Source of the DNA: Actinoplanes oblitus
GTDB lineage: Bacteria > Actinomycetota > Actinomycetes > Mycobacteriales > Micromonosporaceae
Reading direction: 5' to 3'
Assembly: GCF_030252345.1 (NCBI RefSeq)
Contig: NZ_CP126980.1
Location: forward strand, 3,549,501-3,613,500
Length of the DNA: 64,000 nt
In this document: in pieces, positions 3,415 to 63,431 of the stretch
Layout: each line of letters opens with the position of its first letter
How positions within the stretch are numbered: position 1 is the stretch's first letter
The notes under the pieces: generated by a model
Told to the model about the DNA's origin: nothing
The model's database searches: none
What the model saw: the letters and a program-made list of their open reading frames with translations, nothing else
Position numbers and translations under genes: made by a program

Positions 3415-3437
3415 CGATGTCGCACGACCTTCGCGAC

Positions 3438-3918: not shown

Positions 3919-3982
3919 TGCCGGCCACCGCCGCGCGGGTGGCGCCGGATTAATCGGTGGACCGGGCTGCGAGGATTGCGGC

Positions 3983-4522: not shown

Positions 4523-4525
4523 CCC

Positions 4526-4591: not shown

Positions 4592-4593
4592 AG

Positions 4594-5565: not shown

Positions 5566-6453
5566 ATGGATCCGCACCACCTGCGGCTGTTGCGCGAGCT
5601 GGGGGACCGGGGGAGCGTCGCGGCGGTGGCCCGATCGCTGCACATCACGCCGTCGGCGGTGTCCCAGCAGTTGAACACCCTGCAACGGTCGGCGCCGGTG
5701 CCGCTGACCGAGCGCAGTGGCCGCCGCCTGGTGCTGACCGAGGCCGGGCGGGCGCTGGCCGCGGCGGCCGTCGAGGTGCTTACCGCGCTGGACCGCGCGG
5801 ACCGGGCCGTCGGGGCCTACCTGGACGATCCGGCGGCGCCGGTCACCGTCAGCGCGTTCCACAGTGCCGCGCTGACCTGGTTCCCGCCGCTGGCCCGGCG
5901 GGTACCGGGGGTGCGCTGCGCGGACGAGGACGTGGCCCGTGCCGACTTCCCGGGCCTGGTCGGCGACTACGACCTGGTGATCGCGCACCGGCTGGCGCAC
6001 AGCCCGCCGTGGCCGGCCGGGCGGGTGACCGTGGTGCCGCTGGTCTACGAGCCGCTCTACGTCGCGATGGCGGCGGACTCGCCGCTGGCCGGGAAATCCC
6101 GGCTCACCGCCGTGGACGTGGCCGGCGAGCCGTGGATCAGCGTGCACGAGGGGTTCCCGGTCGAGGGGGTGCTGACCGCGATCGGGGCGGCGGCCGGGCG
6201 GCCGCTCGACATCGTGCACCGGATCAACGAGTTCACCGTGACCGCGTCGATGGTGGCGGCCGGCGCGGCGCTGGCGCTGCTGCCCGGGTACACCACGGTG
6301 CCCGATCCGCGGCTGGTCCTGCGTCCGCTGGCCGACCTGCCGGTCGGCCGGCACATCGACGTGCTGGCCAGACCGGAGGCCCTGCACCGGGCGGCGGTAC
6401 GCGTGGTCCTCGAGGCGCTGCGCGAGATCAGCCGTGCCGGTGGTGCTTCTTGA
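5566..6453 (+). CDS. LysR-family transcriptional regulator
   Basis: 295 residues. N-terminal winged helix-turn-helix (about 1-60) with the LysR pattern VAAVARSLHITPSAVSQQLN and LTEAGRAL, followed by a shortened LysR substrate-binding domain (about 90-290, LVIAHRLAH, VPLVYEPLYVAMAADSPLAG, GAALALLPGYT). Start ATG 5566 with TGGAG upstream. Likely regulates the divergent EamA transporter and itself (inference from arrangement). Its 3' end overlaps the convergent gene by 26 bases. Confidence 0.9.
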   Translation: MDPHHLRLLRELGDRGSVAAVARSLHITPSAVSQQLNTLQRSAPVPLTERSGRRLVLTEAGRALAAAAVEVLTALDRADRAVGAYLDDPAAPVTVSAFHSAALTWFPPLARRVPGVRCADEDVARADFPGLVGDYDLVIAHRLAHSPPWPAGRVTVVPLVYEPLYVAMAADSPLAGKSRLTAVDVAGEPWISVHEGFPVEGVLTAIGAAAGRPLDIVHRINEFTVTASMVAAGAALALLPGYTTVPDPRLVLRPLADLPVGRHIDVLARPEALHRAAVRVVLEALREISRAGGAS

Positions 6454-7303
6454 CGAACGTGTACCCCGGCGGTAGTTCCTCGTCCTCGTCGATCAGGTCG
6501 TTCTCCACCGCGCGCTGGTAGGCAGAGAGCTGCTTCTCCGACGGCTGGGCGCCGGGCGGCAGCTTGCGGACGAAACCCTTGACCCAGTGCTCCCGGCGCT
6601 CGTGGTACTCCGCCGGCGAGTCCGACTCGTCCGGATGCTGCGCGGGCTCCACCAGCGGGGCGTAGAACAGCAGGTCGACCGGCTCCTCGCCGTCGACCGC
6701 CGGGTAGGACGGCTGCCCGGCCGGGTCGACGCTGCCCTCGACGCGGGTGACGTACCCCTCGCGGATCAGCTGGTCCACCGCGTTCTTCAGCAGGAACGCG
6801 CCCTTCTGGCCCCGGCCCAGCCCGGACTGCCTGGCCAGCTCGGCCTCGGGGAAGACCGCGCTGCCGTCCTCGAAGACCCGGCCGCGCTTGCGGATCGTGG
6901 TGAGCACCCGCATCCGGTTCGACGGGCGGGCCTCGTAGTCGCGGGTGACGGTCTTCGGGTCGTACTCGTGGTAGTAGTTGACGCCGTCGATGCGCATCGG
7001 GTCGGCCAGGACCTTGGTGCGCATCACCACGGCGTCCCGCCCGGACTGCCAGGAGATCGTCACGAACATGCCGGTCCGCAGGTCGTCCGGCCAGGTGATC
7101 CCGGTGAACTGCCAGGTGATGTCCTGCTCCAGCCGCGCCTCGAAGACCTCCCGGGTCGGGGTGATCCCCTTCACCCGGTGTTCCAGCACGACCAGCACCG
7201 GGTCCCGGTCGCGCAGCGCCTCGGCGAGCTCCTCCGGCGCGGTGCACACCGAGCCGTCCAGGTCGGCATGGCGCAACGTGACCCGGCGCGTCACCGTTCG
7301 CAT
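6428..7303 (-). CDS. Conserved hypothetical protein with a winged-helix-like segment
   Basis: A 291-residue soluble protein that I do not recognise as a named family. The N-terminal half is rich in beta strand (RRVTLRHADLDGSVC, QFTGITWPDDLRTGMFVTIS). Residues about 140-195 (FPEAELARQSGLGRGQKG, NAVDQLIREGYVTRVEG) have the look of a winged helix; the C-terminal 100 residues are charged and end in a His/Lys-rich tail. No signal peptide or membrane helix. Start ATG 7303. It could be a regulator or a replication-type wHTH protein; no neighbour helps. Confidence 0.7.
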   Translation of the reverse strand: MRTVTRRVTLRHADLDGSVCTAPEELAEALRDRDPVLVVLEHRVKGITPTREVFEARLEQDITWQFTGITWPDDLRTGMFVTISWQSGRDAVVMRTKVLADPMRIDGVNYYHEYDPKTVTRDYEARPSNRMRVLTTIRKRGRVFEDGSAVFPEAELARQSGLGRGQKGAFLLKNAVDQLIREGYVTRVEGSVDPAGQPSYPAVDGEEPVDLLFYAPLVEPAQHPDESDSPAEYHERREHWVKGFVRKLPPGAQPSEKQLSAYQRAVENDLIDEDEELPPGYTFVKKHHRHG

Positions 7304-7382
7304 CGTCCACCCCCATCACCGCAGGTCAGATGAGCATGGTCGCACAGTGCGCGGGGCGGTGACGGCGTACCAAAATGCCGTT

Positions 7383-15394: not shown

Positions 15395-16468
15395 TCACCC
15401 GGCCAACTGGTCGGCGGTGTAGTAGCCGCCGTCGATGAGTACCCGCCGGTAGTTGGTGCGGTCGACGTTCACCGGCTGCAGCAGGAAGGTGGGGACGACC
15501 TTGACGCCGTTGTCGTACTGTTTCTCGTCGTTGACCTCGGGGACGCCGCCGAGCAGCAGCGAGTTGGTCATCTGGACGGCGACCTTGGCGAGTTCGCGGG
15601 TGTCCTTGTAGACGGTCTCGGTCTGTTTGCCGGCCGCGATGAGCTTGGCCGACTCGAGTTCGGCGTCCTGGCCGGTGATGACGGGCAGTTTGCGGTAGCC
15701 GTCCTCCTGGAGTGCTTCCAGGGCGGCGCGGGCGATGCCGTCGTTCGGGCAGAGGACCGCGTCCACCCGTTTGCCCCGCAGCGGTCCGGCGAGCAGGCGT
15801 TTCATCCGCTTCTTGGCGACCGCGTTGTCCCAGCGCTGGGTGGCGACGGTGGCGAACGCGGTCTCGCCGCTGACCACCCGCAGCCGGCCGGATCTCAGGT
15901 ACGGCCGCAGCAGGCTCATCGCCCCGTTGAAGAAGAACGTGGCGTTGTTGTCGTCGGCCGACCCGGCGAACAGCTCGATGTTGTCGCTGCCGCCGGTGCT
16001 GTCGAGCCGCAGCGCCTTGATGATCGTGGTGGCCTGCAGCACGCCGACCTTGTAGTTGTCGAAGGTGGCGTAGTACGTGATGTCCGGCGTGTCGCGGATC
16101 AACCGGTCGTAGGAGATCACCGGGATCTTCGCGGTGGCCGCGTCGGCCAGCACGTTCTTGAGCGCGGTGCCGTCGATGGCGCCGACCACCAGCGCCCGGA
16201 CCTTGCCGTCGATCATGCTGGTGATCTGGTCGATCTGCCGGTTGACGTCGTCCTCGGCGTACTGCAGGTCGGTCTTGTATCCGAGCAGCTGGAACTGCCG
16301 GACGATGCTCTCCCCGTCGCCGACCCAGCGGATCGACGTGGTGGTCGGCATGGCGATCCCGATGGTGCCGCGATCCGGTTGCTCGACTGCCGGTTCCGCG
16401 GTGCCGGAGCAGCCGGTCAACAGGGCGAGCACCATCGTCGCGACCACGAACCGGCGCACGGCATACAC
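15395..16468 (-). CDS. Sugar-binding lipoprotein paired with a chemoreceptor
   Basis: 357 residues, signal peptide with lipobox LLTGC (Cys20), then a type I periplasmic-binding-protein fold of the ChvE/XylF/RbsB class: [62 protein letters not shown] and [19 protein letters not shown]. No ABC permease or ATPase gene is in this operon; the next gene, four bases on, is a chemoreceptor. It is therefore more likely a chemosensory binding protein (as ChvE or RbsB for Trg) than a transport component. Start ATG 16468; the ligand is probably an aldose such as xylose or glucose (inference from family). Confidence 0.9.
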
Positions 16469-16734
16469 CCCCTCGTAGCCCTGTTCGGCCGGGCGGGGCG
16501 GGAGATGAGGGTTATCCGGGAAGTGTGCCGCCGGCCCGGCGCCCGCCGGCCCGGGCCCGGGCGTTCCGGTCGCGCCGGATCACGCTGAGCGCGCCGTTCG
16601 CGTGGCGGACATACCAGTCGGAGGTGAAGGCAGTGATTTCCACACCAGCACGGTCGGCAGCACGGGTGCCGCGCCGGAGTGCGGAACCGGTGCCGATGGG
16701 TGGCAGCACGGGCGCGGCGCCCGCCGCCCGGCCG

Positions 16735-17739
16735 TCACCGGCTGCTGAAGGCCGCGTCGAACGCCGCCGACGGTGCGTCGAACAACCGGTCGCGGACGAA
16801 CGCCAACGCCTCCGGAGCCCCGACCAGCCGGTCCATCCCGGCGTCCTCCCACTCCACCGAGATCGGCCCGTGGTAGCCGATCGCGTTCAGGGCCCGGAAG
16901 CATCGCTCCCACGGCACGTCCCCGTGCCCGGTGGACACGAAGTCCCAGCCGCGCCGCAGGTCGGCCCAGGCCAGGTGTGATCCGAGCCGCCCGTTGCGCC
17001 CGTTGCCGACGGCGAGCTTCACGTCCTTGCAGTCCACGTGGTAGATCCGGTCGGCGAACTCCAGGATGAAGTCCGCCGGGTCCAGGTCCTGCCAGATGAA
17101 GTGCGACGGGTCCCAGTTCAGCCCGAACGCCGGCCGGTGCCCGATCGCGTCCAGGGCGCGCCGCGTCGTCCAGTAGTCGTAGGCGATCTCACTGGGGTGC
17201 ACCTCGTGCGCGAACCGGACCCCCACCTCGTCGAACACGTCCAGGATCGGGTTCCACCGGTCGGCGAAGTCCTGGTACCCGGCGTCGATGACGTCCTGGG
17301 ACACCGGCGGGAACATCGCCACGTATTTCCAGATCGCCGAGCCGGTGAACCCGACGACAGTGTCGACGCCGAGCCGGGCGGCGGTGCGCGCGGTGTCCTT
17401 CAGCGCCTGGGCCGCGCGGTCCCGGACGCCGGCCGGGTCGCCGTCGCCCCACACCGCGGCCGGCAGGATGTCCCGGTGGCGGTGGTCGATCGGGTCGTCG
17501 CAGACCGCCTGGCCGGTCAGGTGGTTGGAGATGGCGAAGACCTTCAGGCCGTACTTGTCCAGGATCGCTTTTCGGGAGGACACGTACGAGTCGTCGGTGG
17601 CGCCCCGCGCGACGTCCAGGTGATCACCCCAGCAGGCGATCTCCAGGCCGTCATAGCCCCAGCCGGAGGCCAGTTCGCAGACCTTTTCGAAGGGCAGGTC
17701 CGCCCACTGCCCGGTGAACAGTGTGATCGGTCGGGTCAT
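16735..17739 (-). CDS. Sugar phosphate isomerase/epimerase (AP endonuclease family 2 TIM barrel)
   Basis: 334 residues with the xylose-isomerase-like TIM barrel used by IolE/IolI/UlaE-type enzymes: [74 protein letters not shown] and [12 protein letters not shown]. The acidic and His residues in these strands form the divalent-metal site known for the family. It is the last gene of the ROK-ABC-oxidoreductase operon, ten bases after the Gfo/Idh/MocA stop, and probably acts on the ketone made by that enzyme. Substrate likely a cyclitol or rare sugar (inference). Confidence 0.9.
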
Positions 17740-30076: not shown

Positions 30077-30869
30077 GCATCGCGCGCCAGTCCCGCAGCG
30101 GCGTCACGTCCGTTTCCGCCCACCGGGCGTGGCCGAGCACGCTGTAGGCCGGTCGCCTGGCCGGCCGCACGAACCGGTCGCTGGTCGTCGGACGGACCCG
30201 CGCGGGGTCCAGCCCGGCCTCCTCGAACACCGCCCGGGCCAGGCCGAACCAGGTGGTCGAGCCGGCCGCGGTGCCGTGGTAGACACCCGGCGCCGCGGCC
30301 GAGCGGGCCAGCGCCACCAGCTGCTGCGCCAGTGCGTACGACCAGGTCGGCGGCCCCTGCTGGTCGTCCACCACGTCCACCGTGTCGCGCGTGGCGGCCA
30401 GTCGGAGCATCGTCGTGACGAAGTTCGGCCCGTGCTCGCCGTACAACCAGGCGGTCCGGACCACCGACCCGCCCGCCGCCAGCACCGCTTCCTCGCCGGC
30501 CGCCTTGCTCCGGCCGTAGGCGTTGATCGGCGCCCGCGCCGTGTCCTCCGGGATCGGCGTGGTCGCCGAGCCGTCGAAGACGTAGTCGGTGGAGACGTGG
30601 ATCAGCCGCTTGCCGGCCACCGAGGCGAGGTTCGCCGCACCCCGGCCGTTGATCGCGGTGGCCTGCTCCTCGGCGGTCTCCGCGCCGTCCACGTCGGTCC
30701 AGGCCGCCGCGTTGATCACGACGTCGATGCCGTCGAGCGCCCGCTGCACCGCGGACCGGTCGGTGATGTCGAGGTCGGCGCGGGTGGCCGCCACGACGTC
30801 GGCGCCGTGCAGCACCTTCAGCAGATCCCGGCCGAGCATGCCACCGGCGCCGGTGATCAGCCAGCGCAT
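30048..30869 (-). CDS. rmlD: dTDP-4-dehydrorhamnose reductase
   Basis: 273 residues; last step of dTDP-L-rhamnose synthesis. N-terminal Rossmann MRWLITGAGGMLGRDLLKVL, INAAAWTDVDGAE, ISTDYVF-type HVSTDYVFDGSATTPIPED, the catalytic YGRSKAAGE and VVRTAWLYGEHGPNFVTTML. Start ATG 30869 shares a base with the rmlB stop (TGATG), so the two are translated together. Longer in-frame readings upstream run inside rmlB and are shadows. Confidence 0.95.
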   Translation of the reverse strand: MRWLITGAGGMLGRDLLKVLHGADVVAATRADLDITDRSAVQRALDGIDVVINAAAWTDVDGAETAEEQATAINGRGAANLASVAGKRLIHVSTDYVFDGSATTPIPEDTARAPINAYGRSKAAGEEAVLAAGGSVVRTAWLYGEHGPNFVTTMLRLAATRDTVDVVDDQQGPPTWSYALAQQLVALARSAAAPGVYHGTAAGSTTWFGLARAVFEEAGLDPARVRPTTSDRFVRPARRPAYSVLGHARWAETDVTPLRDWRAMLTEAMPVLR

Positions 30870-31846
30870 CAGAGCCCGGCCCGGGACTTGAGCGGCTCCC
30901 ACCAGTCCCGGTTCTCGCGGTACCAGGTGACCGTCGCGGCCAGCCCTTCGTCGAGGGTGACCCGCGGCTCGTACCCCAATTCGGTGTTGATCTTGGTGAT
31001 GTCCAGCGAGTAGCGGCGGTCGTGACCCTTGCGGTCCGGCACCGGCGTGACCATGTCCCAGTCCGCGCCGCAGGCCGCGAGCAGCTTCTCGGTGAGCGAA
31101 CGGTTGGTCAGCTCGGTGCCGCCACCGATGTTGTAGACCTCGCCGGCCCGGCCCTTCTCCAGCGCGAGCTGGATGCCGCGGACGTGGTCGGTGACGTGCA
31201 GCCAGTCCCGGACGTTGCCGCCGTCGCCGTAGAGCGGCACCTTCCTGCCGTCGAGCAGGTTGGTCACGAACAGCGGGATGACCTTCTCCGGGAACTGGTG
31301 CGTGCCGTAGTTGTTGGAGCAGCGGGTGACCACCACGTCCATGCCGTGCGTCCGGTGCGCCGCGAGGGCGAGCAGATCGGAGGAGGCCTTCGAGGCGGCG
31401 TAGGGCGAGTTCGGCGCCAGCGGCCAGGTCTCGGTCCACGAGCCCTCGTCGATCGAGCCGTACACCTCGTCGGTGGAGACGTGCACGAAGCGGCCGACCC
31501 CGGCGGCGCGGGCCGCGTCCAGCAGCACCTGGGTGCCGAGCACGTTGGTGGTGACGAACGGTACCGCGCTGTTGATCGACCGGTCCACGTGCGACTCGGC
31601 GGCGAAGTGGACCACCGCGTCGTGCCCGGGCAGCAGATCACGCAGCAGGTCGGCGTCGCCGATGTCGCCGCGCACGAAGGTCAGTCGGGAATCCGTCACC
31701 GGCAGGTTGGCCAGGTTGCCCGAATAGGACAACAGGTCCAAGACGGTCACCGATGCGCCGACCGCACCTGGGAAATCATCCTTCAGTACCGCTCGCACAT
31801 AGGCCGAACCGATGAAACCGGCGCCTCCGGTCACAAGAATCTGCAC
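30869..31846 (-). CDS. rmlB: dTDP-glucose 4,6-dehydratase
   Basis: 325 residues from GTG 31846 (VQILVTGGAGFIGSAYVRAV). Extended SDR with GxxGxxG, VVHFAAESHVDRSI, HVSTDEVYGSIDEG, catalytic YAASKASSD, CSNNYGTHQFPEKVIPLF and RDWLHVTDHVRGI. Makes dTDP-4-keto-6-deoxyglucose, the common precursor of rhamnose and of amino sugars. A GTG at 31873 is an alternative start, but a TACACT -10-like hexamer seven bases before GTG 31846 suggests that this start is used from a leaderless message. Divergent from rmlA. Confidence 0.95.
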   Translation of the reverse strand: MQILVTGGAGFIGSAYVRAVLKDDFPGAVGASVTVLDLLSYSGNLANLPVTDSRLTFVRGDIGDADLLRDLLPGHDAVVHFAAESHVDRSINSAVPFVTTNVLGTQVLLDAARAAGVGRFVHVSTDEVYGSIDEGSWTETWPLAPNSPYAASKASSDLLALAAHRTHGMDVVVTRCSNNYGTHQFPEKVIPLFVTNLLDGRKVPLYGDGGNVRDWLHVTDHVRGIQLALEKGRAGEVYNIGGGTELTNRSLTEKLLAACGADWDMVTPVPDRKGHDRRYSLDITKINTELGYEPRVTLDEGLAATVTWYRENRDWWEPLKSRAGL

Positions 31847-31849
31847 AGC

Positions 31850-31891
31850 GGGCGAGTGTACTACCGCTTCCACTGTGTTTAGTCTTCCTCA
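31850..31891. promoter_or_regulatory. Compact divergent promoters of rmlB and rmlA
   Basis: On the minus strand TACACT ends seven bases before GTG 31846; on the plus strand TAGTCT (31880-31885) ends seven bases before GTG 31892. Neither gene has a ribosome binding site. Both placements fit promoters driving leaderless mRNAs, back to back in under 50 bases. Confidence 0.45.
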
Positions 31892-32776
31892 GTGCGCGGA
31901 ATTCTGCTGGCCGGTGGTACCGGCTCCCGGTTGTGGCCCATCACCATGGCCATGTCGAAACAGCTCATGCCAATTTTTGACAAACCGATGGTGTACTACC
32001 CGTTGACCACACTCGTCTCCGCGGGAATTAGGGAGATCCTGGTCATCACCACCCCGGAGGATCGGCCGCATTTCCGGCGTCTGCTCGGTGACGGCGACCG
32101 ATTCGGGCTGTCGCTCTCCTATGCGGAACAGCCGAAACCGGACGGGATCGCCCAGGCGTTCCGGATCGGTGCGGACTTCATCGGCGACGAGCCGGTGGCG
32201 CTGATCCTGGGCGACAACATCTTCCACGGGGTGGGCCTGGGCCGGCAGCTCGCGGCGTTCACCGAGCCGGCCGGCGGGCGGGTCTTCGCCTACCCGGTCG
32301 CCGACCCGGAGCGCTACGGCGTCGTCGAGTTCGACGCGGCCGGCAAGGCGCTGTCCATCGAGGAGAAGCCCGAGAAGCCCAAGTCCACGTACGTCGTGCC
32401 CGGCCTCTACTTCTACGACGCCGACGTCGTGCAGATCGCCGAACGCCTGGTGCCCAGCGCCCGGGGCGAGCTGGAGATCACCGCGGTGAACGAGGAGTAC
32501 CTGCGCCGCGGCCGCCTCGACGTGACCGTATTGGATCGGGGTACGGTGTGGCTGGACACCGGCACGTTCCAGTCCATGGTGCAGGCCTCGGAGTACGTCC
32601 GGGTGATCGAGGAGCGGCAGGGACTGAAGATCGGCTGTGTCGAGGAGGCCGCCTGGCGGCACGGGTTCATCACCGACGATCAGTTGCGTGAGCTGGCCCA
32701 ACCGTTGCTGAAGAGCGGCTACGGGACGTACCTGGAGCGGCTGCTGGAGACCGGCCCGTTCGGCGGTGCCCGATGA
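31892..32776 (+). CDS. rmlA: Glucose-1-phosphate thymidylyltransferase
   Basis: 294 residues with the nucleotidyltransferase signature [49 protein letters not shown] and [20 protein letters not shown]; length is that of the short RmlA form. First step of dTDP-sugar synthesis. Start GTG 31892 with a -10-like TAGTCT seven bases upstream. Overlaps rmlC by ATGA. Confidence 0.97.
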
Positions 32777-33384
32777 AGATCCGGCCGCTGACCATCGAGG
32801 GCGCCTGGGAGGTCACCCCGGTGCAGCACGGCGACGACCGGGGCACGTTCCTGGAGTGGTACCGCTTCGATCACCTGGCCGCGGCGATCGGGCACCCGCT
32901 GAACCTCGCCCAGGCCAACCTGTCCACCTCGACCCGCGGCGTGGTGCGTGGCGTCCACTTCGCCGACGTGCCGCCGGGCCAGGCGAAATACGTGACCTGT
33001 GTGGCCGGTGCGGTGCTGGACGTGGTGGTCGACATCCGGGTCGGCTCACCGACCTTCGGGCAGTGGGAGGCGGTGCCGCTGGACGACCGGGAGCGGCGGG
33101 CCGTCTATCTCGCCGAGGGACTGGGCCACGCGTTCTGCGCGCTGACCCAGGGGGCCACGGTGGCCTACCTCTGCTCGTCGACGTACCGGCCCGGGCACGA
33201 GCACGGGGTGCACCCGCTGGACCCGGCGCTGGCGATCACCTGGCCGGTCGAGGCGCCGTCGCTGTCGGCGAAGGACGCCGCCGCGCCGTCGCTGGCCGAG
33301 GCGCTGGAGGCCGGCCTGCTCCCGCGGTACGAAACATGTCGTGACTATGTCGAAACAATGCGTCATTTTGATGACAGTCAATAG
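32773..33384 (+). CDS. rmlC: dTDP-4-dehydrorhamnose 3,5-epimerase
   Basis: 203 residues, RmlC cupin: [57 protein letters not shown], and the catalytic-region [20 protein letters not shown] and [14 protein letters not shown]. The catalytic His is in RGVHF. Translationally coupled to rmlA. With rmlA, rmlB and rmlD the set for dTDP-L-rhamnose is complete. Confidence 0.95.
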
Positions 33385-48339: not shown

Positions 48340-51300
48340 GTGATAAATAGGCTCGCAGCAGGCGTGTTGTCAGCGCTGCTGTTCGGTGCCGTGGTCGGGC
48401 TGCCAGGGGCAGTCCTGGCGGCGGACGACCCATGCGGGGTCAATTCCAATCCGATCGTGTGCGAGAACTCCAAGCCCGGCACACCGCGCGACGACTGGTA
48501 CTCGGACGCCTCGTGGGGCGACATCGAGGGCTTCACCACCAAGGTGAGCGTCCAGCCCGGTGAGACGCTGAAGATGAAGGTGAACTCGCCGACCGCGTTC
48601 ACCGTCACCTTCTACCGGCTCGGCTACTACCAGGGCAACGGTGCGCGGATCATGCCGACGTCGCCGACCGCCAAGTTCCCGGCCAAGGTGCAGAACGCGT
48701 GCCAGAAGGACCCGGCCGTCGGCCTCGTCGACTGCGGCAACTGGACCACCAACGTGACCTGGACGGTGCCCTCGGACGCGGTCTCCGGTGTCTACCTGGC
48801 CGCGCTGGACCAGGGTGACGGGCTGGGCTACATGCCGTACCCGTTCGTCGTGGCCAACGACAACAGCCACTCCGACATCGTGGTGCAGACCTCCGACGAG
48901 ACCTGGCAGGCGTACAACTCGTGGGGCGGGCAGAACCTGTACGAGGGCGGCGGCCCGGCACCGGACGGCCGCGCGTACAAGGTCAGCTACAACCGGCCGC
49001 TGCGGATCGCCGGTGACAACGCGATCCTGTCCAGCGAGTTCCCGATGATCCAGTGGCTGGAGCGCAACGGCTACGACGTCAGCTACGCCTCCAACCTGGA
49101 CGTCTCCACCAAGCCGTCGCTGCTGCCCAAGCACAAGATCTACGTGTCGTCGGGCCACGACGAGTACTGGGACCAGGGGATCTGGGACAACGTCAAGGCG
49201 GCCCGCGCCGCCGGGGTGAACCTGGCGTTCTTCAGCGCCAACGAGGCGTTCTGGCGGACCCGCTGGGAGCCGTCGCTCGCCGCCGACGGCGGTGACCACC
49301 GCACCCTGGTCTCCTACAAGATGACCAAGATGAACCAGTCGCCGCCGAACGGCGTCGCCGACCCGAGCGGCCAGTGGACCGGCACCTGGATGGACCCGGC
49401 CGGTGCCGGCAAGGGCGGCAACTCGCCGCAGAACCAGATCACCGGCACGCTGTTCTCGGTCAACGGCTACCGGCACGACGCCATGACGGTGTCCTCGCAG
49501 TTCAAGAAGATGCGGCTGTGGCGCGACACCGAGATCGAGAGGCTCGGCGACGGCGAAGTGGCGACGTTCCCGGCCGGCACCCTCGGCTACGAGTGGGACT
49601 CCGACGTGGAGAACGCGGTGCGCCCGCCGGGCGCCGTCCGGTTCTCGGCCACCACCCTGCAGATCACCGACGGCACGCTGCTGCTGGACGAGGGCAACAA
49701 CTACGGCAACGGCGTGGCCACGCACAGCGTCGTGATGTACCGCGACCCGGTCTCCAAGGCGCTGGTCTTCGGCTCCGGCACGGTGCAGTGGTCGTGGGGC
49801 CTGAGCACCCTGCACACCGGCCCGGCCAGCTCCGAGGACCCGCGGATGCAGCAGGCCACGCTGAACCTGCTGGCCGACATGGGCGCGCAGCCGAAGACCA
49901 TCCAGAGCGGCATGAAGGTGCCGGTCAAGTCGGCCGACACCACCGGTCCGGTGGTGACGGTGAGCGCCCCGACGGCGGGGAGCACCGTGCCCAAGCTGTC
50001 CCCGATCACGGTGACCGGTACCGCCGCCGACGCCGGCGGGCAGCTCGGCCGGGTGGAGGTCTCCACCGACGGCGGCACCACCTGGAACGCGGCGACCGGG
50101 CTGGCCACCTGGACGTACACCTGGACGCCGGTCGCCGAGGGCGCCGCGCAGATCAAGGTGCGGGGCATCGACGACAGCCTGAACTTCGGCACCGTCACCA
50201 CGATCAACCTGACCGTCGGGCCGCAGAAGTGCCCGTGCACCACGTACAAGGCCGGTGACGTGCCGGCCAACGTGGACTCGCAGGACGCCAACGCGAACGA
50301 GCTGGGCGCCAAGTTCCAGGTGTCGGTGCCGGCCCAGGTGACCGGGGTGCGGTTCTACAAGGCCGCCGCGAACACCGGCACCCACCTCGGCAAGCTCTGG
50401 ACGACCGGCGGGAAACTGCTGGCCACCGGCACGTTCCAGAACGAGTCGGCCAGCGGCTGGCAGACGATGAGTTTCGCCAGCCCGGTCTCGATCGCGGCGA
50501 ACACCACGTACGTCGTGTCCTACTACACCCCGACCGGGCACTACTCGTACTCCAGCGCCTACTTCACCGCCAAGGGCGCCGGGGACGGCATTGTCAAGCA
50601 GCTGCAGTCCGGGGTGTCCGGGCCGAACGGCGTCTACAAGTACGGCACCAACGGTGGCTTCCCGAACCTGAGCTGGGGCGACACCAACTACTGGGTGGAC
50701 GCGGTGGTGGAGACGGCCTCGGCCGGCACCACGCCGCCGGTGGTCACGGTGCGCAGCCCGGCGAACGGTGACGCCGGCGTGGCCCGCAACACGTCGGTGA
50801 CCGCGACGTTCGACCACGACGTCAACCCGGAGACGCTGGAGTTCACCCTCAAGGCGGGCGGCACCGCCGTCGGCGCCAAGGTGTCCTACGACGACACCAC
50901 CCGCAAGGCGACCCTGCAGCCGGACAGCGTGCTGGCCGCGAACACCCAGTTCACCGCGTCGGTGAAGGCTGCCGACCTGTGGGGCAACGCGATGGCGTCG
51001 GCGCAGACCTGGCAGTTCACCACCGGGTCCGGGGTGCAGTGCCCCTGCTCGGTGTGGGGCTCGGCGGCCACGCCGGATGTGGAGAGCGCCGGCGAGGCCA
51101 ACGCCCTGGAGCTCGGCATGCGGTTCACCTCGGCGGTCGACGGCTACGTCACCGGGGTCAAGTTCTACAAGGGTGACCGCAACACCGGCACGCACACCGG
51201 GACGCTGTGGTCGGACACCGGGCAGGAGCTGGCCACCGGCACGTTCCAGAACGAGTCGACGAGCGGCTGGCAGACCCTGAAGTTCGCGACCCCTGTGGAG

Positions 51301-51534
51301 ATCGACGCGAACATCACGTACGTGGTGTCCTACCACACCGAGGTGGGCTTCTACGCGTACAGCCCGTCGTACTTCACGCAGGCCCGGACCTCGTACCCGC
51401 TGACCGCGGTGGCCGACTCGGCCACCGGGCACAACGGGTTGTTCAAGGCCAGCTCCACCCGGACGTTCCCGACATCCAGCTGGAACGCCGGCAACTACTG
51501 GGTCGACGTGGTGTTCACGACGGCCACACCGTGA
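48340..51534 (+). CDS. Secreted DMFase-like protein with Big and two DUF4082 modules
   Basis: 1064 residues. Signal peptide (1-28, cleavage near AVLAADDP). Residues about 35-505 resemble the N,N-dimethylformamidase beta-subunit-like domain (FTVTFYRLGYYQGNGAR, DETWQAYNSWGGQNLYEGGG, KIYVSSGHDEYWDQGIWDNV, FFSANEAFWRTRWE). Then an Ig-like module (about 535-625), DUF4082 copy 1 (about 630-790), a Big_5-type module (about 795-890) and DUF4082 copy 2 (about 900-1062). Both DUF4082 copies carry GTFQNES-SGWQT and YWVD. Probably a polymer-binding extracellular enzyme. Start GTG 48340 after TGAGGAAAAG. Confidence 0.85.
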   Translation: MINRLAAGVLSALLFGAVVGLPGAVLAADDPCGVNSNPIVCENSKPGTPRDDWYSDASWGDIEGFTTKVSVQPGETLKMKVNSPTAFTVTFYRLGYYQGNGARIMPTSPTAKFPAKVQNACQKDPAVGLVDCGNWTTNVTWTVPSDAVSGVYLAALDQGDGLGYMPYPFVVANDNSHSDIVVQTSDETWQAYNSWGGQNLYEGGGPAPDGRAYKVSYNRPLRIAGDNAILSSEFPMIQWLERNGYDVSYASNLDVSTKPSLLPKHKIYVSSGHDEYWDQGIWDNVKAARAAGVNLAFFSANEAFWRTRWEPSLAADGGDHRTLVSYKMTKMNQSPPNGVADPSGQWTGTWMDPAGAGKGGNSPQNQITGTLFSVNGYRHDAMTVSSQFKKMRLWRDTEIERLGDGEVATFPAGTLGYEWDSDVENAVRPPGAVRFSATTLQITDGTLLLDEGNNYGNGVATHSVVMYRDPVSKALVFGSGTVQWSWGLSTLHTGPASSEDPRMQQATLNLLADMGAQPKTIQSGMKVPVKSADTTGPVVTVSAPTAGSTVPKLSPITVTGTAADAGGQLGRVEVSTDGGTTWNAATGLATWTYTWTPVAEGAAQIKVRGIDDSLNFGTVTTINLTVGPQKCPCTTYKAGDVPANVDSQDANANELGAKFQVSVPAQVTGVRFYKAAANTGTHLGKLWTTGGKLLATGTFQNESASGWQTMSFASPVSIAANTTYVVSYYTPTGHYSYSSAYFTAKGAGDGIVKQLQSGVSGPNGVYKYGTNGGFPNLSWGDTNYWVDAVVETASAGTTPPVVTVRSPANGDAGVARNTSVTATFDHDVNPETLEFTLKAGGTAVGAKVSYDDTTRKATLQPDSVLAANTQFTASVKAADLWGNAMASAQTWQFTTGSGVQCPCSVWGSAATPDVESAGEANALELGMRFTSAVDGYVTGVKFYKGDRNTGTHTGTLWSDTGQELATGTFQNESTSGWQTLKFATPVEIDANITYVVSYHTEVGFYAYSPSYFTQARTSYPLTAVADSATGHNGLFKASSTRTFPTSSWNAGNYWVDVVFTTATP

Positions 51535-54925: not shown

Positions 54926-56041
54926 TCAGCGGCGCAACGGCACGACCGTCGTCGTGACGATCTTCGTCTTGACCACGTGCTCGGCCGGCACGGACGCCGT
55001 CAGCACCGCGCCGGAAGCGACGGCGACATCGTCGCCGATCACCACGTCCGGTTCGATGACGATGCCGGTGCCGAAGCGGGTGCGGTTGCCGATGGTGACC
55101 TTGCCGGAGGTGTAGACCGACGGGCCGGTGGCGTTGTCGTCGCCGATCACGCTGTGGTGGTCGAACGAGTTGTAGGCCGAGAAGAAGTTGTTGTCGCCCA
55201 CCTTCACCCCGGTCGCCACATGGCAGAACGCGCAGATGATGTTGCCCTGCCCGAGCTCGGTGTCGGTGGCGATCTTCGCGGTCGGGTCGATCGCGTTGGC
55301 CAGCGGGATGCCGGCCCGCTCGCAGACGCCGCGGAACTTGGCGCGAACCGCCGGCGACTTGCCGATCGCGATGATCGCCGCGTCGAAGACGCCGGCCCCG
55401 AACAGCTCGGTGAGCCGCCCGCTGCCGCCGACCACCGGCACGCCGTGCACCTCGGCGCCCCAGCGCGACGTGTCGTCGTCGACGATCGCGACGGCCTGTT
55501 GCGTCGTGCTGCCCGCCAGGATGTCCAGGACCTGCGTGGCACCGAGCGCCGCCCCGATGATCAGGATCCGCTGCCGGCCGGGTGCCCCGGTCAGCGGCGC
55601 CGGGAGGTCCGCCTCGGCGACGACCGGCGCGACCACGGCGGCTTCCACGTCCTTGACCGTGATCAGCCGGTCCAGGCCCAGCGAGGCCAGGTCGACGCCC
55701 AGTTCGGCAGCCCGCTGGACGGCCTTCACCGTGGCCCGCGGTCCGTCCGTAGCGGGCGCCGCGGCAGCGGCCGCGGCCTGCTCGATGACGTAGGCGTCGC
55801 GGGCCACGACGTCGTCGAACAGCATCGCGATCGGCTGCGTGAGCCGGATCTCGGCCCCCTTCGCGGCCTGGTGCAGCAGCACCCCGGCGACCGGCGCGAC
55901 CACCTCGAGGACCGCCTTGCTCGTCTCCACCTCGGCGAGCAGCTCATCCTTCGCCACCTCGGCGCCGTCCTCGGCGAACCACATCACCAGGATGCCGTGC
56001 TCGCTGTTGACGTCGTTGGTGGGCACCAGGACGGGATTCAA
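54926..56041 (-). CDS. Fusion of E2-type lipoyl and subunit-binding domains to a NeuD/PglD sugar N-acyltransferase
   Basis: 371 residues. (1) Lipoyl domain 1-77 with the lipoylation site ETSK42AVLEV. (2) Ala/Pro linker 86-100. (3) Peripheral subunit-binding domain 102-136 (ATVKAVQRAAELGVDLASLG, LITVKDVEAAV), which in E2 proteins holds E1 or E3. (4) NeuD/PglD acyltransferase 155-371: Rossmann-like ILIIGAALGAT, then a left-handed beta helix with the catalytic-type FDHHSVIGDD (His295/296). The usual E2 catalytic core (HxxxDG) is absent. Start TTG 56041 has AAGGAG upstream and a TTGA overlap with the E1 beta stop. I infer direct acyl transfer from lipoate to an amino sugar. Confidence 0.85.
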   Translation of the reverse strand: MNPVLVPTNDVNSEHGILVMWFAEDGAEVAKDELLAEVETSKAVLEVVAPVAGVLLHQAAKGAEIRLTQPIAMLFDDVVARDAYVIEQAAAAAAAPATDGPRATVKAVQRAAELGVDLASLGLDRLITVKDVEAAVVAPVVAEADLPAPLTGAPGRQRILIIGAALGATQVLDILAGSTTQQAVAIVDDDTSRWGAEVHGVPVVGGSGRLTELFGAGVFDAAIIAIGKSPAVRAKFRGVCERAGIPLANAIDPTAKIATDTELGQGNIICAFCHVATGVKVGDNNFFSAYNSFDHHSVIGDDNATGPSVYTSGKVTIGNRTRFGTGIVIEPDVVIGDDVAVASGAVLTASVPAEHVVKTKIVTTTVVPLRR

Positions 56042-57057
56042 CGGGACTCCTTATGAGCGGCGCGCAGGGCCGCCTCGATCCGGGCACTGCCGACCAGTAC
56101 GTCGGCTTCCTTGGGCTTCGACGACGGGATGATGGTGGGCTCGCTGGCCACCACGTCGACCGGCTGCCGCAGCCTGCCGAACAGCCGCCGGGAGATCACC
56201 GAGGCCGCCTCGGATCCCCAGGACCAGCCGTCGGCACCCTCCTCGATCGTCACCAGACGGCCGGTGACCGAGACCGATCGCTCGACCGGCGCCCAGTCCA
56301 TCGGGGCGATCTGCGCCGGCACGATCAGCTCGGCGAAGATCTCCTCCTCGATGGCCAGCCGCTCGATCACCTGGGCGGCCAGCATCGCCTGATAGCCGTA
56401 GGCGAGGACGCTGATCGTGCAGTCCTCGGCGGGCACCGCGGAGAGCCGGATCGTCGGCAGCATGCCGGGGGAGTTGTCGCTGGTCGCGATGAGGTCACCG
56501 ACCCGGCCGCCGACCGGCGGCGTGAGGTGCTGCGGGTAGAGCAGCTTGTGCTCCACGTAGAGCACCGGCTCGTCGCGGCGCAGGAAGTCGGCGAAGACCT
56601 CCCGCGGGTCGTGGTAGAGCGAGGCGGCGACCACCCTCAGGTGCGGGACGCCGAGGAAGTGCTTTTCCAGGCTCTGACTGTGGGTGGGGCCGTAACCGCG
56701 GTGCCCGCCGGTGGCCGCCCGGATGATCACCGGGCAGGTGGCCTGCTCGGCGTACATCTTCTGATATTTGGCGATGTGGTTGACGACCTGATCGAACATC
56801 AGCGTCAAAAAGTCGCCGAACATCACCTCGGCGATCGGCCGGTACCCCGCCAGGGCCAGGCCGGCCGAGATGCCGGCGATCGCGCCCTCGCTGATCGGCG
56901 TGGTCCGCACCCGTTGCGGGAAGGCAGTGGACAGGCCGCGGGTCACCTTGAAGGCGCCACCGTACGGATCGGCGATGTCCTCCCCGAGCAGCACCACCCG
57001 CTCGTCGTCGCCGAGCGCCCCGCGCAGCGTGTCGCCCAGCTCCTTCGCGAAGATCAC
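56038..57057 (-). CDS. 2-oxoacid dehydrogenase E1 component, beta subunit
   Basis: 339 residues, transketolase-like pyrimidine-binding and C-terminal domains: DERVVLLGEDIADPYGGAFK, TTPISEGAIAGISAGLALAG with the thiamine-activating Glu58, VMFGDFLTLMFDQVVNHIAK, GGHRGYGPTHSQSLEKHFLG (His126) and LEV-type ISVLAYGYQAMLAAQVIERL. AcoB/PdhB/BkdB family. GTG 57057 overlaps the alpha-subunit stop (GTGA); its stop overlaps the lipoyl-NeuD start (TTGA). Forms the alpha2beta2 E1 with the upstream gene product; the 2-oxoacid is not predictable. Confidence 0.93.
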   Translation of the reverse strand: MIFAKELGDTLRGALGDDERVVLLGEDIADPYGGAFKVTRGLSTAFPQRVRTTPISEGAIAGISAGLALAGYRPIAEVMFGDFLTLMFDQVVNHIAKYQKMYAEQATCPVIIRAATGGHRGYGPTHSQSLEKHFLGVPHLRVVAASLYHDPREVFADFLRRDEPVLYVEHKLLYPQHLTPPVGGRVGDLIATSDNSPGMLPTIRLSAVPAEDCTISVLAYGYQAMLAAQVIERLAIEEEIFAELIVPAQIAPMDWAPVERSVSVTGRLVTIEEGADGWSWGSEAASVISRRLFGRLRQPVDVVASEPTIIPSSKPKEADVLVGSARIEAALRAAHKESR

Positions 57058-57989
57058 GCGCTCGCCCTCGCCGTCGCCACGACCTCGCTCAGCGCGGTCT
57101 CCACCTCGTCCTCGATCCGCCGCCGGTCCGCCTCGTCGAGCCGCCGCCCGTGCACCACCAGCGGCTCGACCAGCCACCGCTCGGCGATCTCCCGCTCCGG
57201 CCGCTCGTCGTCGCTCTTCGAGTGGTGGCACAGCCGGTACGTGTGGATCAGCAGCACCCGCGGCCCCTCCCCGGAGCGCACCGCGGCCACCTCCGCACCG
57301 GCGATCTCGCTCAGCTCCTGCACGTCGGTGCTGTCCACCTCGCGCACCGGCACGCCGAACGCGGCGAACCGGGACGCCATGTCGCCGGCCAGGTTGGCGG
57401 CGATCGGCGTGCTCTGCGCCCACCGGTTGTCCTCGCAGACCACCAGCAGCGGCAGTTTCCACAGCGCGGCCATGTTCAGCGTCTCGTAGACCACCCCCTC
57501 GCCCAGGGTGCCGTCGCCGATGAACACCACGCTCACCGCGTCGTTGCCGGAGAGTTGATTCGCGAGGGCGATCCCGGCCGCGTTCGGCACGATGCCGCCC
57601 TGCACGCCGTTGGACTTGAAGCCGGGCGCGCAGATGTGCTGGCTGCCGCCCAGCCCGCGGCAGACGCCGGCCTCTTTGCCCATGATCTCGGCCATCAGGC
57701 CCAGGGCGTCACCGGAGTGCGCGAGGTAGTGGCCGTGGCACCGGTGGTTGCTGAAGATGTGGTCGCCGTCGGCGAGGTGCTCGGTGACCGCCACGGCGTC
57801 GGCCTCCTGGCCGATGCAGGCGTGCGTGGTCCCGTTGAGCGCACCCTCCTCGAACAGCTGCAACAGCGTCTCTTCGAATCGCCGGATGAACCGCATGCGC
57901 CGGTACCGCCGGTGGGCGAGCGGCTCGCCGGGGACCCCGGTGAGCCGCTCGTCGGTCCCGTCCCGCGCCGGCGCGAGCGCCGTCGACAT
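57054..57989 (-). CDS. 2-oxoacid dehydrogenase E1 component, alpha subunit
   Basis: 311 residues from ATG 57989 with GGGGAGG upstream (a TTG at 57992 is adjacent). AcoA/PdhA family: FEEGALNGTTHACIGQEADA, HIFSNHRCHGHYLAHSGD, GSQHICAPGFKSNGVQGGIV and the thiamine-diphosphate motif starting GDGTLGEGVVYETLNMAALW with Asn about 28 residues on (CEDN). First gene of a three-gene operon (E1 alpha, E1 beta, lipoyl-NeuD). No E3 and no conventional E2 gene follows. Confidence 0.94.
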   Translation of the reverse strand: MSTALAPARDGTDERLTGVPGEPLAHRRYRRMRFIRRFEETLLQLFEEGALNGTTHACIGQEADAVAVTEHLADGDHIFSNHRCHGHYLAHSGDALGLMAEIMGKEAGVCRGLGGSQHICAPGFKSNGVQGGIVPNAAGIALANQLSGNDAVSVVFIGDGTLGEGVVYETLNMAALWKLPLLVVCEDNRWAQSTPIAANLAGDMASRFAAFGVPVREVDSTDVQELSEIAGAEVAAVRSGEGPRVLLIHTYRLCHHSKSDDERPEREIAERWLVEPLVVHGRRLDEADRRRIEDEVETALSEVVATARASA

Positions 57990-58311
57990 CAAAATGTGCC
58001 TCCCCCTGGCCGCCCCCGAGGGGCGGATGATCCCATCGCGCCGACCCTACCGACGCCGGCGAGTCCGATGGAGACACCTTCAGCCATCGTGGAAGCGCCG
58101 GGGATCGCCTAATTAGAGCCGAACGGCCGGTGCTCCCCACCCAACGGATGGGACCGGCCCGCTTACGGCGCTGACTACAGTAGTCGAGCCGATCACAACG
58201 CACCGTGACGTAATCGGGGTTGCCGGAAAGCCGTCACTGCACTGCCGCGGACATCGACCCGGCGGTAATGTCCGTCCACTCAAGAGCCCCTTTCCCGGGA
58301 GTAGACACAAC
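57990..58311. promoter_or_regulatory. Divergent control region between E1 operon and aminotransferase operon
   Basis: 322 bases without a gene. Contains CTAATTAG (58109-58116), the most AT-rich spot and a possible -10 for the E1 operon, and a perfect inverted repeat GACTAC-A-GTAGTC (58173-58185) near the centre, a candidate operator for joint control. Confidence 0.4.
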
Positions 58312-59421
58312 ATGATTCCGCTCGTCGATCTGCAAGCCGCGCACGCCGAGGTCGCCGAGGAGGTGGACGCCGGGTTCAAGCGGGTGCTCGCCACCACCGG
58401 ATTCATCGGCGGCGGCGAGGTGGCGGCGTTCGAGCGCGAGTTCGCCGACTTCTCCGGCGCCGCTCACTGCGTGGGTGTCGCCAACGGCACCGACGCCGTG
58501 GAGCTGGCCCTGCGGGCCGCCGGTGTCGGTCCCGGCGACGAGGTGGTGGTGCCGGCCAACACGTTCGTCGGCACCGTCGAGCCGGTCGCCCGGATCGGCG
58601 CCCGCGTGGTGATGGCCGACATGGACCCGGACACCTACCTGGTCGACGTCGACCAGATGCTCGCCGCGGTCGGCCCGAAGACCAAAGCCGTCGTCCCGGT
58701 GCACCTCTACGGGCAGCTGGCCGACGCGCCGCGGCTGCGCGCCGAGCTGGCCGGCAGCGGCGTCGCGGTGGTCGAGGACGCCGCGCAGTGCCAGGGCGCC
58801 CTGCGCCACGGCCGGGGCGCCGGTGCCGACGGCATCGCCGCCACCAGCTTCTACCCGGGCAAGAACCTGGGCGCCTACGGTGACGCCGGTGCGGTCCTCA
58901 CCCCGGATCAGGACCAGGCGATTTTCGTACGCACCCTGGGCAGTCACGGGGGCCTGGAGAAGTACCTGCACGAACTGGTCGGGATGAACAGCCGCCTCGA
59001 CGCGTTGCAGGCCGTGGTGCTGCGCGCCAAGCTGGCCCGGCTGGGCGCGTGGAACGCGTCACGCCGCGCCGCCGCCGACCGCTATCACCAGCTGCTCGCC
59101 GACCTCGACGTGGTCCGCCCGGTCACCCTGGACGGCAACGAGCACGCCTGGCACCTCTACGTCGTCCGGATCCCGGGCGGCCCGCGGCGGCGCGACGCCG
59201 TGCTGGCCAAGCTGCACGAGTCCGGTGTGGGCGCGGGCATCCACTACCCGTACCCTCTGCACCTGACCCCGGCCTTCGCCGACCCGAAGTACCCGGCCGG
59301 CAGCTTCCCGCACGCCGAGAAGGCGGCCGGCGAGATCCTGTCGCTGCCGCTCTACCCGCAGATCACCGTGGACCAGCAGGAGAAGACCGTGGCCGCCCTC
59401 GCGGCCGCGCTGGAGGGCTAG
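58312..59421 (+). CDS. DegT/DnrJ/EryC1/StrS sugar aminotransferase
   Basis: 369 residues, fold-type I PLP enzyme: FIGGGEVAAFEREFADFSGA, VGVANGTDAVELALRAAGVG, VVPANTFVGTVEPV, VVPVHLYGQLADAP, VVEDAAQCQGA (Asp156) and the PLP lysine K184 in TSFYPGKNLGAYGDAGA. Transfers an amino group (usually from glutamate) to a keto group of a nucleotide sugar. The SFYPGKNLG form is seen in C-3 aminotransferases such as FdtB/QdtB/DesV, which suggests a 3-amino-3,6-dideoxy sugar, but a C-4 product is not excluded. Start ATG 58312; first gene of a four-gene operon. Confidence 0.93.
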   Translation: MIPLVDLQAAHAEVAEEVDAGFKRVLATTGFIGGGEVAAFEREFADFSGAAHCVGVANGTDAVELALRAAGVGPGDEVVVPANTFVGTVEPVARIGARVVMADMDPDTYLVDVDQMLAAVGPKTKAVVPVHLYGQLADAPRLRAELAGSGVAVVEDAAQCQGALRHGRGAGADGIAATSFYPGKNLGAYGDAGAVLTPDQDQAIFVRTLGSHGGLEKYLHELVGMNSRLDALQAVVLRAKLARLGAWNASRRAAADRYHQLLADLDVVRPVTLDGNEHAWHLYVVRIPGGPRRRDAVLAKLHESGVGAGIHYPYPLHLTPAFADPKYPAGSFPHAEKAAGEILSLPLYPQITVDQQEKTVAALAAALEG

Positions 59422-61706: not shown

Positions 61707-63431
61707 GTGAGGTCTTTCCTCGCGGTCTCCGGGGCAGCCCCGCGGCCCGACATCCTCGAGTATCTGCCCGGCGACCCGGTCGTGTCCCGCACGGCCACCG
61801 GATGGGTCGCCACCGACGAGCCGGTGGACGACGCCTTCACCGTGCTGATCGGCAAGACCGCCCGGACCCGCGGCGGCGACGTCTCCACCGAGGCGCTGGG
61901 CGTGCTGCTGCGCGCCGGGGCCAAGGTCGACGGCTCGCGGCTGGCCGCGCTGGTCCCGCCGTTCGCGGCGGCGCACAGCGACGGGTCGACGGTGGTCGCG
62001 GCCACCGACTGGCTCGGCTTCCAGCAGCTGTTCTGGTGGCAGGGCGACGGCGTCGCCGCGATCTCCACCAGCGCACTCGCCCTGGCCGCCCTGGCCGGCG
62101 CCGGCCTGGACCGGCCGGCGCTCGCCGTGCAGAGCCTGGTCGGCTGGCAGGTCGGGCTGCGCACCGTCTTCGCCGGGGTGCACAAGGTGCCGGCCGGCTG
62201 CCTGGTGACCCTCGAGGACGGCCGGGTCACCCCGCACCGCTACGTCGAGGAGTCCCTCGCCGTCGACGGTCCGGCACCGGGCCTCGAGGAGGCCGCCGCC
62301 GAGCAGGCCGAGCTGATGATCGAGTTCCATGAGGCCTACCTGCGCGACCACCCGTCGTCGGTGTTGCAGCTGACCGGTGGGCAGGACACCCGGGTGCTGC
62401 TCGCCGCCATCCGCCCGGCGGCGCGTACCGGGCTCGCGGCGCTCACCCTGGACGTGCACGGCGGCACCGACTCCCGGTTCGCCCGGCGGCTCGCCGACCT
62501 CACCGGTATGAACCTGCACGTGCACTGGATGGACGACGGCCCGGCGGTCACCCCGGCCGAGGCGCACGAACTCGCCGTCCGGGCCGCCCGCGACCTCGAC
62601 TGCATGGCCAGCCCGCTCGCGCTCGCCCCGCTGCTGCGCGCCGAGGCGCAGCTGGAGCAGGGGCACCGGCTCTCCGGGCTGGGCGGCGAGACCTGCCGTG
62701 GCTTCTACTATTTCGGGCAGCCCAGCGGCGCGACCACCGGACCGAAACTGATCGAGAAACTGGCCACCTGGCGGCTGTACGCCAACGAGGCGGTCGAGAC
62801 CGCCGCCCTGGCGCCGGAGTTCGCCGCGTCCGCGCGGGCGTCCGCCCTGGAGCTGATCACCGAGTCGTTCGACGGTTATCCGGGGGAGTGGCTGGCCGCG
62901 ACCGACCACTTCTACCTGTACCAGCGGATGCAGCGCTGGTCCGGCGCACACGGGTCGGTGGCCGCGGTGAACCGGCACTTCGTCAACCCGATGTTCGACA
63001 GGCGGTTCATCCAGCTGGCGCACGCGGTCAGGCCGGAGGAGAAACGCAACGGGCTGCTCACCGGCCGGCTGATCACCCTGCTCGACGCGGAGCTGGCCGC
63101 CGTACCGTTGGATTCTGGTCTGATCCCGAACCGGCTCGGCCGGCCGGGCCTGGCCGCGCGGACCGCCGCCTACCGGGTCACCGCGCAGAAGGCGGCCCGC
63201 AAGATCCGGCAGAAGCTGCGTGGTCAGGGCCGGCCGCAGCTCGGGGCGGCCGAGACCGCGGCGCTGGTGGTGGCGCACTGGCGCGCCGAGCCGTCGGTGG
63301 TCGCCCCGCTGCGGGCCACCGGCCTGGTCGACGACGGGTGGCTCGACGGCGTGCTGGCCGGGCGCGTCAGCCCGGAACCGGCCACGGTCGCCTTCCTGAT
63401 CAACCTGCTGGTGATCGGCGGGGTCAGCTGA
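61707..63431 (+). CDS. Asparagine-synthase-like protein lacking the glutaminase cysteine
   Basis: 574 residues with asparagine synthetase B organisation: a degenerate N-terminal glutaminase-like domain (about 1-190) and a C-terminal ATP-pyrophosphatase-like domain. The N-terminus is MRSF, so the Cys at position 2 essential for glutamine hydrolysis is missing. The PP-loop SGGxDS appears as TGGQDTR (223-229). LSGLGGETCRGFYYFGQPSG and HFVNPMFDRRFIQLAHAVRP follow as in EPS-associated AsnB-like proteins. It may amidate or otherwise activate a carboxyl group using free ammonia or another amine (inference). GTG 61707 after AAGGGAA. Confidence 0.85.
   Translation: MRSFLAVSGAAPRPDILEYLPGDPVVSRTATGWVATDEPVDDAFTVLIGKTARTRGGDVSTEALGVLLRAGAKVDGSRLAALVPPFAAAHSDGSTVVAATDWLGFQQLFWWQGDGVAAISTSALALAALAGAGLDRPALAVQSLVGWQVGLRTVFAGVHKVPAGCLVTLEDGRVTPHRYVEESLAVDGPAPGLEEAAAEQAELMIEFHEAYLRDHPSSVLQLTGGQDTRVLLAAIRPAARTGLAALTLDVHGGTDSRFARRLADLTGMNLHVHWMDDGPAVTPAEAHELAVRAARDLDCMASPLALAPLLRAEAQLEQGHRLSGLGGETCRGFYYFGQPSGATTGPKLIEKLATWRLYANEAVETAALAPEFAASARASALELITESFDGYPGEWLAATDHFYLYQRMQRWSGAHGSVAAVNRHFVNPMFDRRFIQLAHAVRPEEKRNGLLTGRLITLLDAELAAVPLDSGLIPNRLGRPGLAARTAAYRVTAQKAARKIRQKLRGQGRPQLGAAETAALVVAHWRAEPSVVAPLRATGLVDDGWLDGVLAGRVSPEPATVAFLINLLVIGGVS

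Follow-up and report, generated by a model that had tools for sequence, protein, structure and literature searches.

In textbook 2-oxoacid dehydrogenase complexes, the acyl group carried on lipoate ends on coenzyme A (CoA). A locus of the soil bacterium Actinoplanes oblitus raises the question of where that acyl group goes when the lipoyl-bearing protein has a sugar N-acyltransferase in place of the E2 catalytic core. We analyzed this locus within a stretch of 64,000 nucleotides (the window; assembly GCF_030252345.1, contig NZ_CP126980.1, positions 3,549,501-3,613,500, forward strand), in which genes for E1-alpha, E1-beta and a 371-amino-acid fusion protein adjoin one another. We consider it probable that the acyl group made by E1 is carried on the lipoate of the fusion and passed directly to a nucleoside diphosphate (NDP)-3-amino sugar, without acyl-CoA. 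Lipoylation, direct transfer, trimer formation and the nature of the acceptor are what we infer from the modules and key residues of the fusion, its linkage to E1 genes, the pathway genes nearby and the recurrent exchange of the core in other genomes.

Domains and conserved residues of the fusion protein

The three genes lie on the minus strand in the order E1-alpha, E1-beta, fusion, with a 4-base overlap at each junction. A sequence-only reading of this DNA had described them as coupled through GTGA and TTGA, and both overlaps were found (57057-57054 and 56041-56038, respectively). E1-alpha (57054-57992; Pfam E1_dh; motifs GDG...CEDN and HRCHGH) has 312 amino acids when read from a TTG at 57992; the ATG at 57989, taken as its start in that reading, is a possible alternative within this longer open reading frame. 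E1-beta (56038-57057) has 339 amino acids, matches to Pfam Transket_pyr and Transketolase_C, and PISE and THSQS motifs. NCBIfam models likewise identify both proteins as E1 subunits.

The fusion (54926-56041, TTG start) begins with a lipoyl domain at residues 1-76 (55814-56041; Pfam Biotin_lipoyl, 14-73), in which Lys42 (codon 55916-55918) lies in an ETSKA motif. A putative peripheral-subunit-binding-like domain follows at about residues 101-138 (55628-55741). The C-terminal part consists of a Rossmann-like PglD_N subdomain at residues 157-235 (55337-55573; Pfam PF17836, 158-235), whose structure matches are to PerB, VioB and PglD, and a left-handed beta-helix (LbH) acyltransferase at about residues 248-355 (54977-55300; Pfam Hexapep, best stretch 315-348). 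This fold was evident from Pfam, NCBIfam and structure matches, as the sequence-only reading had proposed in assigning a NeuD/PglD-type enzyme in place of the E2 core. The NCBIfam NeuD model TIGR03570 matched residues 159-358 with 123 bits, below its cut-off of 160.8. E2-type NCBIfam models matched only the N-terminus, and neither Pfam nor NCBIfam detected the 2-oxoacid_dh catalytic domain, the chloramphenicol acetyltransferase (CAT)-like E2 core, in the fusion. The histidine region DHHSVIG is at the predicted place, with His295 (codon 55157-55159) and His296 (55154-55156). His295 aligns with His141 of PerB, the residue mutated in that enzyme.

We found 702 homologues of the fusion at E≤1e-3, and compared 168 distinct relatives, pooled from the best 120 of each of two homologue searches. 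All 168 are 365-380 amino acids long and keep the ETSK and [DE]HH motifs, and with them the lipoyl lysine and the His295-His296 pair. None of the 168 has the C-terminal G-x-P-A element, which we take to belong to the CoA site in the LbH fold; its absence from the clade of the window protein is no more than suggestive of a changed donor. We rejected a chance or mis-assembled fusion, given the 168 relatives of similar length and 13 close loci on 13 contigs. Biotin in place of lipoate was rejected from the ETSKA motif, as we understand such motifs.

Linkage to E1 genes and exchange of the E2 core

We scanned the GTDB genome collection with a pair of lipoyl-domain peptide patterns and recovered 42 loci. 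A full-length fusion was present in 14 of them (L005-L018). E1-alpha and E1-beta genes are directly upstream of the fusion in all 13 close loci (L005-L017), and the divergent locus L018 (Zixibacteria; 22% identity in the fusion) has the order fusion, E1-alpha, E1-beta. E1 genes likewise lie beside the fusion at another divergent locus, L101, where it is on the opposite strand with its end abutting E1-beta. In the family of the window, assigned as Micromonosporaceae by its named Actinoplanes relatives, the fusion was found in 15 of 250 genomes and 6 of 44 genera, and E1 genes are directly upstream in 15/15; these genomes overlap in part with the 14 loci of the pattern scan. (The phylum and family labels of some genomes were inferred from named loci or relatives.) Given this distribution, the fusion is a sporadic, accessory trait. 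The sequence-only reading would have been refuted by fusions that as a rule lack E1 neighbours; E1 genes lie beside the fusion at all of the loci above. At one Actinoplanes locus (L008/L072), the E1-alpha match ends at query residue 276 of 312, and the C-terminus may be changed or damaged.

There is no dedicated E3 gene beside the E1 and fusion genes, as none of the genome's 27 matches to E3 models is in the window. Elsewhere in the genome there are two E3 genes scoring above the cut-off, and lipA, which could make and re-oxidize a lipoyl arm.

The third protein differs at the other 28 loci of the pattern scan. Twenty-three have a CAT-like core (read by eye from the sequence of the DH[RQA] core region), two run into a contig end, a single one consists of a lipoyl domain alone, and the remaining two have other LbH cores, WcaF-like in L034 and WcaF/WbbJ-like in L045. 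The L045 protein has 282 homologues at E≤1e-10. Among the best 120 of these, all have lipoyl and hexapeptide domains and the histidine of an M-x-H-I-K motif, and 119 have the lipoyl-lysine motif. In a structure model of the L045 fusion, the beta-helix is mostly confident, and it matches N- and O-acetyltransferases, including QdtC. Among 296 genomes of its phylum, this WbbJ-like fusion was found in the starting genome only, and the beta-helix half alone in three more.

We also sampled loci by E1-alpha, independently of the third protein. In Actinomycetota, with the window E1-alpha as query, 4 of 396 genomes passed E≤1e-60; their third proteins are of NeuD type in the window and in G695 (L101), WcaF-like in G727 (L100) and CAT-type in G885 (L102). 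In Acidobacteriota, a 10-row E1-alpha profile (including L034, L045, L017, L019 and the window) matched 58 of 396 genomes at E≤1e-60. We followed only the seven loci at E≤1e-100 (next best, 4.8e-70), and found four CAT and three WcaF-like third proteins. Over the two phyla, 6 of 11 loci sampled by E1 have an LbH instead of a CAT-type core. The window, L034 and L019 had already been known; among the 8 new loci, 4 have an LbH core.

On trees of E1-alpha plus E1-beta, the NeuD and the WcaF-like labels are scattered. The first tree (45 rows) requires three changes for the NeuD label and two for the WcaF-like label. This tree omits L026, L033 and L044, in which E1-alpha was not found; L038 (lipoyl domain only) was labelled "none", L036 and L037 (third proteins cut by contig ends) were assigned to CAT because they resemble L039, and L056 and L057, which carry their own housekeeping E1, were labelled CAT with the E2 unread. 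In the second tree (44 rows), which also omits L036, L037, L038 and L041-L043, well-supported branches force at least three changes for each label, although L146 and L045 are long branches of unsure placement. One supported E1 clade contains three WcaF-like loci (L100, L144, L145) together with the NeuD locus L101. Because each label needs at least three changes, repeated replacement of the E2 core on the same chassis seems likely; a label change may mean that a core was gained or lost, or that genes were exchanged. The window fusion belongs to a broader pattern, a recurrence that could not be visible to the earlier reading from one sequence.

Several features of the CAT-type relatives were noticed. 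As read by eye, CAT-type E2s of the same E1 clade (L019, L020, L022, L024-L026, L035, L043, L046, L142, L143) have a cysteine-rich, zinc-ribbon-like C-terminal tail with two C-x-x-C pairs; we know of no such tail in an ordinary E2. L142 has two different lipoyl CAT-type E2-like genes (3218-4633 and 6031-7365) near one E1 gene, and the one adjoining E1 has FDAR at the position expected for the catalytic DH. At L102 (3001-8696), E1 and CAT-type E2 genes lie, by eye, between two ketosynthase-like genes, which suggests that this member of the E1 clade supplies a starter for fatty-acid or polyketide synthesis.

Acceptor, mechanism and alternatives

The genes near the fusion indicate which sugar might be acylated. 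A DegT/DnrJ/EryC1/StrS sugar aminotransferase (Pfam PF01041) is encoded by the divergent neighbour at 58312-59421 on the plus strand, and QdtB and WbpE are among its closest solved structures. A DegT aminotransferase match is kept with the fusion in all 14 loci L005-L018 (the L016 copy is cut by the contig end), and in the eight loci outside Actinoplanes (L011-L018) it is always accompanied by a Gfo/Idh oxidoreductase gene. For the four Gfo/Idh proteins scanned, the best NCBIfam model was UDP-GlcNAc 3-dehydrogenase, in each case under the cut-off. A. oblitus has, 4.3 kb past the end of the window, a Gfo/Idh gene that shares 70% identity with its L011 counterpart. These 3-dehydrogenase-like and 3-aminotransferase-like genes point to a UDP-GlcNAc-derived 3-amino sugar rather than a dTDP sugar. 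The amino-sugar setting proposed in the sequence-only reading therefore stands, but its dTDP-amino sugar fits the neighbours less well. Supply from the dTDP-sugar-type genes of the exopolysaccharide cluster in the window (30869-33384, about 22 kb away; by Pfam, a 4,6-dehydratase-like gene on the minus strand, and nucleotidyltransferase and dTDP-sugar epimerase genes on the plus strand) is possible but not favoured.

Other genes of the region were also noted. In three genera (L012, at 16156-17013, L014 and L015), a PhyH-type dioxygenase gene is conserved some 5 kb downstream of the fusion, directly preceded by a second, divergent DegT-like gene. A 574-amino-acid protein with no Pfam match at E≤1e-3 is encoded next to the operon in the window (61707-63431) and has a likely counterpart, similar at the N-terminus, in L005 (1304-3088). 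By eye, a 1064-amino-acid protein of the exopolysaccharide cluster (48340-51534) looks secreted: it has what resembles a signal sequence, and its C-terminal modules are repeated.

We propose that the three genes encode a CoA-independent machine for N-acylation of a nucleotide-activated amino sugar. E1 chemistry yields acyl-dihydrolipoyl, and in NeuD-type enzymes a sugar amine receives an acyl group that arrives on a long, flexible thioester arm; since the fusion lacks an E2 core, the simplest account is that lipoate serves as donor in place of CoA. E1, as an alpha2beta2 enzyme with thiamine diphosphate, would decarboxylate a 2-oxoacid and reductively acylate the lipoate on Lys42, while the subunit-binding-like domain would dock E1 and probably also the common E3 of the cell. 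The lipoyl arm would then swing to a trimeric NeuD-type beta-helix and enter it at the position that CoA occupies in PerB. With His295 as the base, dihydrolipoate would give up the acyl group to the amine of an NDP-3-amino sugar, supplied by the Gfo/Idh 3-dehydrogenase and the DegT aminotransferase of the same region, and the lipoate would be re-oxidized by a housekeeping E3. The product would probably be an N-acyl-3-amino sugar for the surface polysaccharide of the cluster. We favour an acyl group that is scarce as a CoA thioester, since keeping a dedicated E1 just for acetyl would be a waste.

Several observations weigh against this mechanism or parts of it. Solved structures of NeuD homologues contain acetyl-CoA or CoA, and the G-x-P-A element is kept in 108 of the 120 WbbJ-like (L045) relatives listed. 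In an AlphaFold model of the window fusion, the beta-helix is of low confidence (pLDDT, the predicted local distance difference test, about 55-67). The weakest point of the architecture is the subunit-binding domain, called an E1/E3-binding domain in the sequence-only reading. Of the 17 members scanned, 9 had a Pfam E3_binding match at E≤1 (the strongest at 0.0042, still below the Pfam threshold), and the window protein was not among them. The assignment draws instead on an hhalign profile match to the same region of related CAT-type E2s (92.3% probability, where none of 20 column-shuffled controls exceeded 0.54%; 19.9% against a single ordinary E2, from L042). In addition, a WlbB-like LbH acetyltransferase gene (best PDB match 3mqg) adjoins the A. 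oblitus Gfo/Idh gene, and similar genes are present in L016 and L018. From these genes, the 3-amino sugar could be acetylated in the ordinary way, with the fusion acting on another group. Finally, the aminotransferase and Gfo/Idh queries had no match at L101 (NeuD, 16 kb) or at L034, L045 and L100 (other LbH cores). Those genes are thus not part of every such system, and the result at L101 slightly lowers our confidence.

The alternative that survives best, which we consider unlikely, is that the NeuD part works as a conventional N-acetyltransferase with acetyl-CoA as donor, and that E1 and the lipoyl part have a function of their own, such as feeding the housekeeping E2 or keeping enzymes together. 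The closest solved structures to the fusion (PerB, VioB, PglB and PglD) are of enzymes that use CoA or acetyl-CoA, and the same genome has a stand-alone NeuD-like open reading frame (215 amino acids, 27% identity). This explanation does not account for the fusion of three LbH families to lipoyl domains beside the same E1 clade, the adjacency of E1 at every fusion locus examined, or the missing G-x-P-A element.

A marginally less probable alternative keeps direct transfer from lipoate and changes the acceptor, which might be a different amine, a hydroxyl group or a lipid-linked sugar, for instance. It would accommodate the WlbB-like gene beside the A. oblitus Gfo/Idh gene, the likeness of the WcaF/WbbJ-like cores of the sister systems to O-acetyltransferases, and the four loci without sugar-gene matches. 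Against it, the NeuD, PerB and VioB relatives act on NDP-amino sugars, and the fusion is the sole LbH protein in five of the eight loci with Gfo/Idh and aminotransferase genes (L011, L012, L014, L015, L017), as counted by tblastn with WlbB-like and fusion queries (WlbB-like matches over 80 residues).

It seems quite improbable that the E1 pair serves in sugar branching, with the fusion as a docking or modifying partner. Pyruvate-dehydrogenase-like alpha/beta pairs, AviB1/AviB2 of the avilamycin and Pau11/Pau12 of the paulomycin pathway, have been proposed to attach a two-carbon branch through a C-C bond (PMC4425429), and keto-sugar intermediates are expected in our system too. The passages considered name no lipoyl partner for the pairs, whereas the lipoyl lysine is invariant in our 168 relatives and the partner is an N-acyltransferase near an aminotransferase gene in all 14 loci. 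Least probable is that the beta-helix has no catalytic role and only holds E1 and E3 as a trimeric scaffold, with the acyl-lipoyl used elsewhere: CAT-type E2 cores and LbH proteins both form trimers and so could replace each other structurally, but the invariant His295-His296 pair, with His295 at the position mutated in PerB, argues against an idle core.

Relation to known systems and significance

E1-alpha, E1-beta and a lipoyl domain with a conserved lysine, together with a putative subunit-binding-like domain, recall the pyruvate, branched-chain and acetoin dehydrogenases; unlike those complexes, the system here has an LbH sugar acyltransferase at the C-terminus in place of a CAT-like E2 core, and lacks a dedicated E3 gene nearby. 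Known members of the NeuD/PglD/PerB/VioB group use acetyl-CoA and have no lipoyl domain, whereas the window clade lacks G-x-P-A. WlbA/WlbC/WlbB and WbpB/WbpE/WbpD are 3-amino-sugar pathways, and they resemble the loci L011-L018 in the pairing of Gfo/Idh 3-dehydrogenase-like and DegT genes (8/8). They differ in that acylation here is apparently by the E1-lipoyl-NeuD machine, with WlbB-like genes also in L016, L018 and A. oblitus. The closest precedent found for E1-like proteins in sugar chemistry is AviB1/AviB2 and Pau11/Pau12, in which an E1-alpha/beta-like pair has likewise been recruited for sugar modification. The chemistry there is C-C branching, and the passages considered describe no lipoyl acyltransferase (PMC4425429). 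We found neither a lipoyl-beta-helix fusion nor lipoate-dependent sugar acylation in the open-access literature, which is weak evidence of absence.

There is about an even chance, in our judgement, that these loci represent a general, undescribed bacterial class of acylation machines that work without CoA, in which a specialized E1 clade charges lipoate for interchangeable cores (NeuD-type, WcaF-like, WbbJ/QdtC-like and CAT-like) behind the same lipoyl and binding domains. E2 would then be a modular chassis with exchangeable cores, and in place of CoA its acceptors would have become sugars and other precursors of surface structures or natural products. If our proposal is correct, lipoate would have a new role as the direct acyl donor for sugar N-acylation, there would be a route from 2-oxoacids to N-acyl sugars, and the acyl decoration of polysaccharides would be set by a dedicated decarboxylase rather than by the CoA pool.

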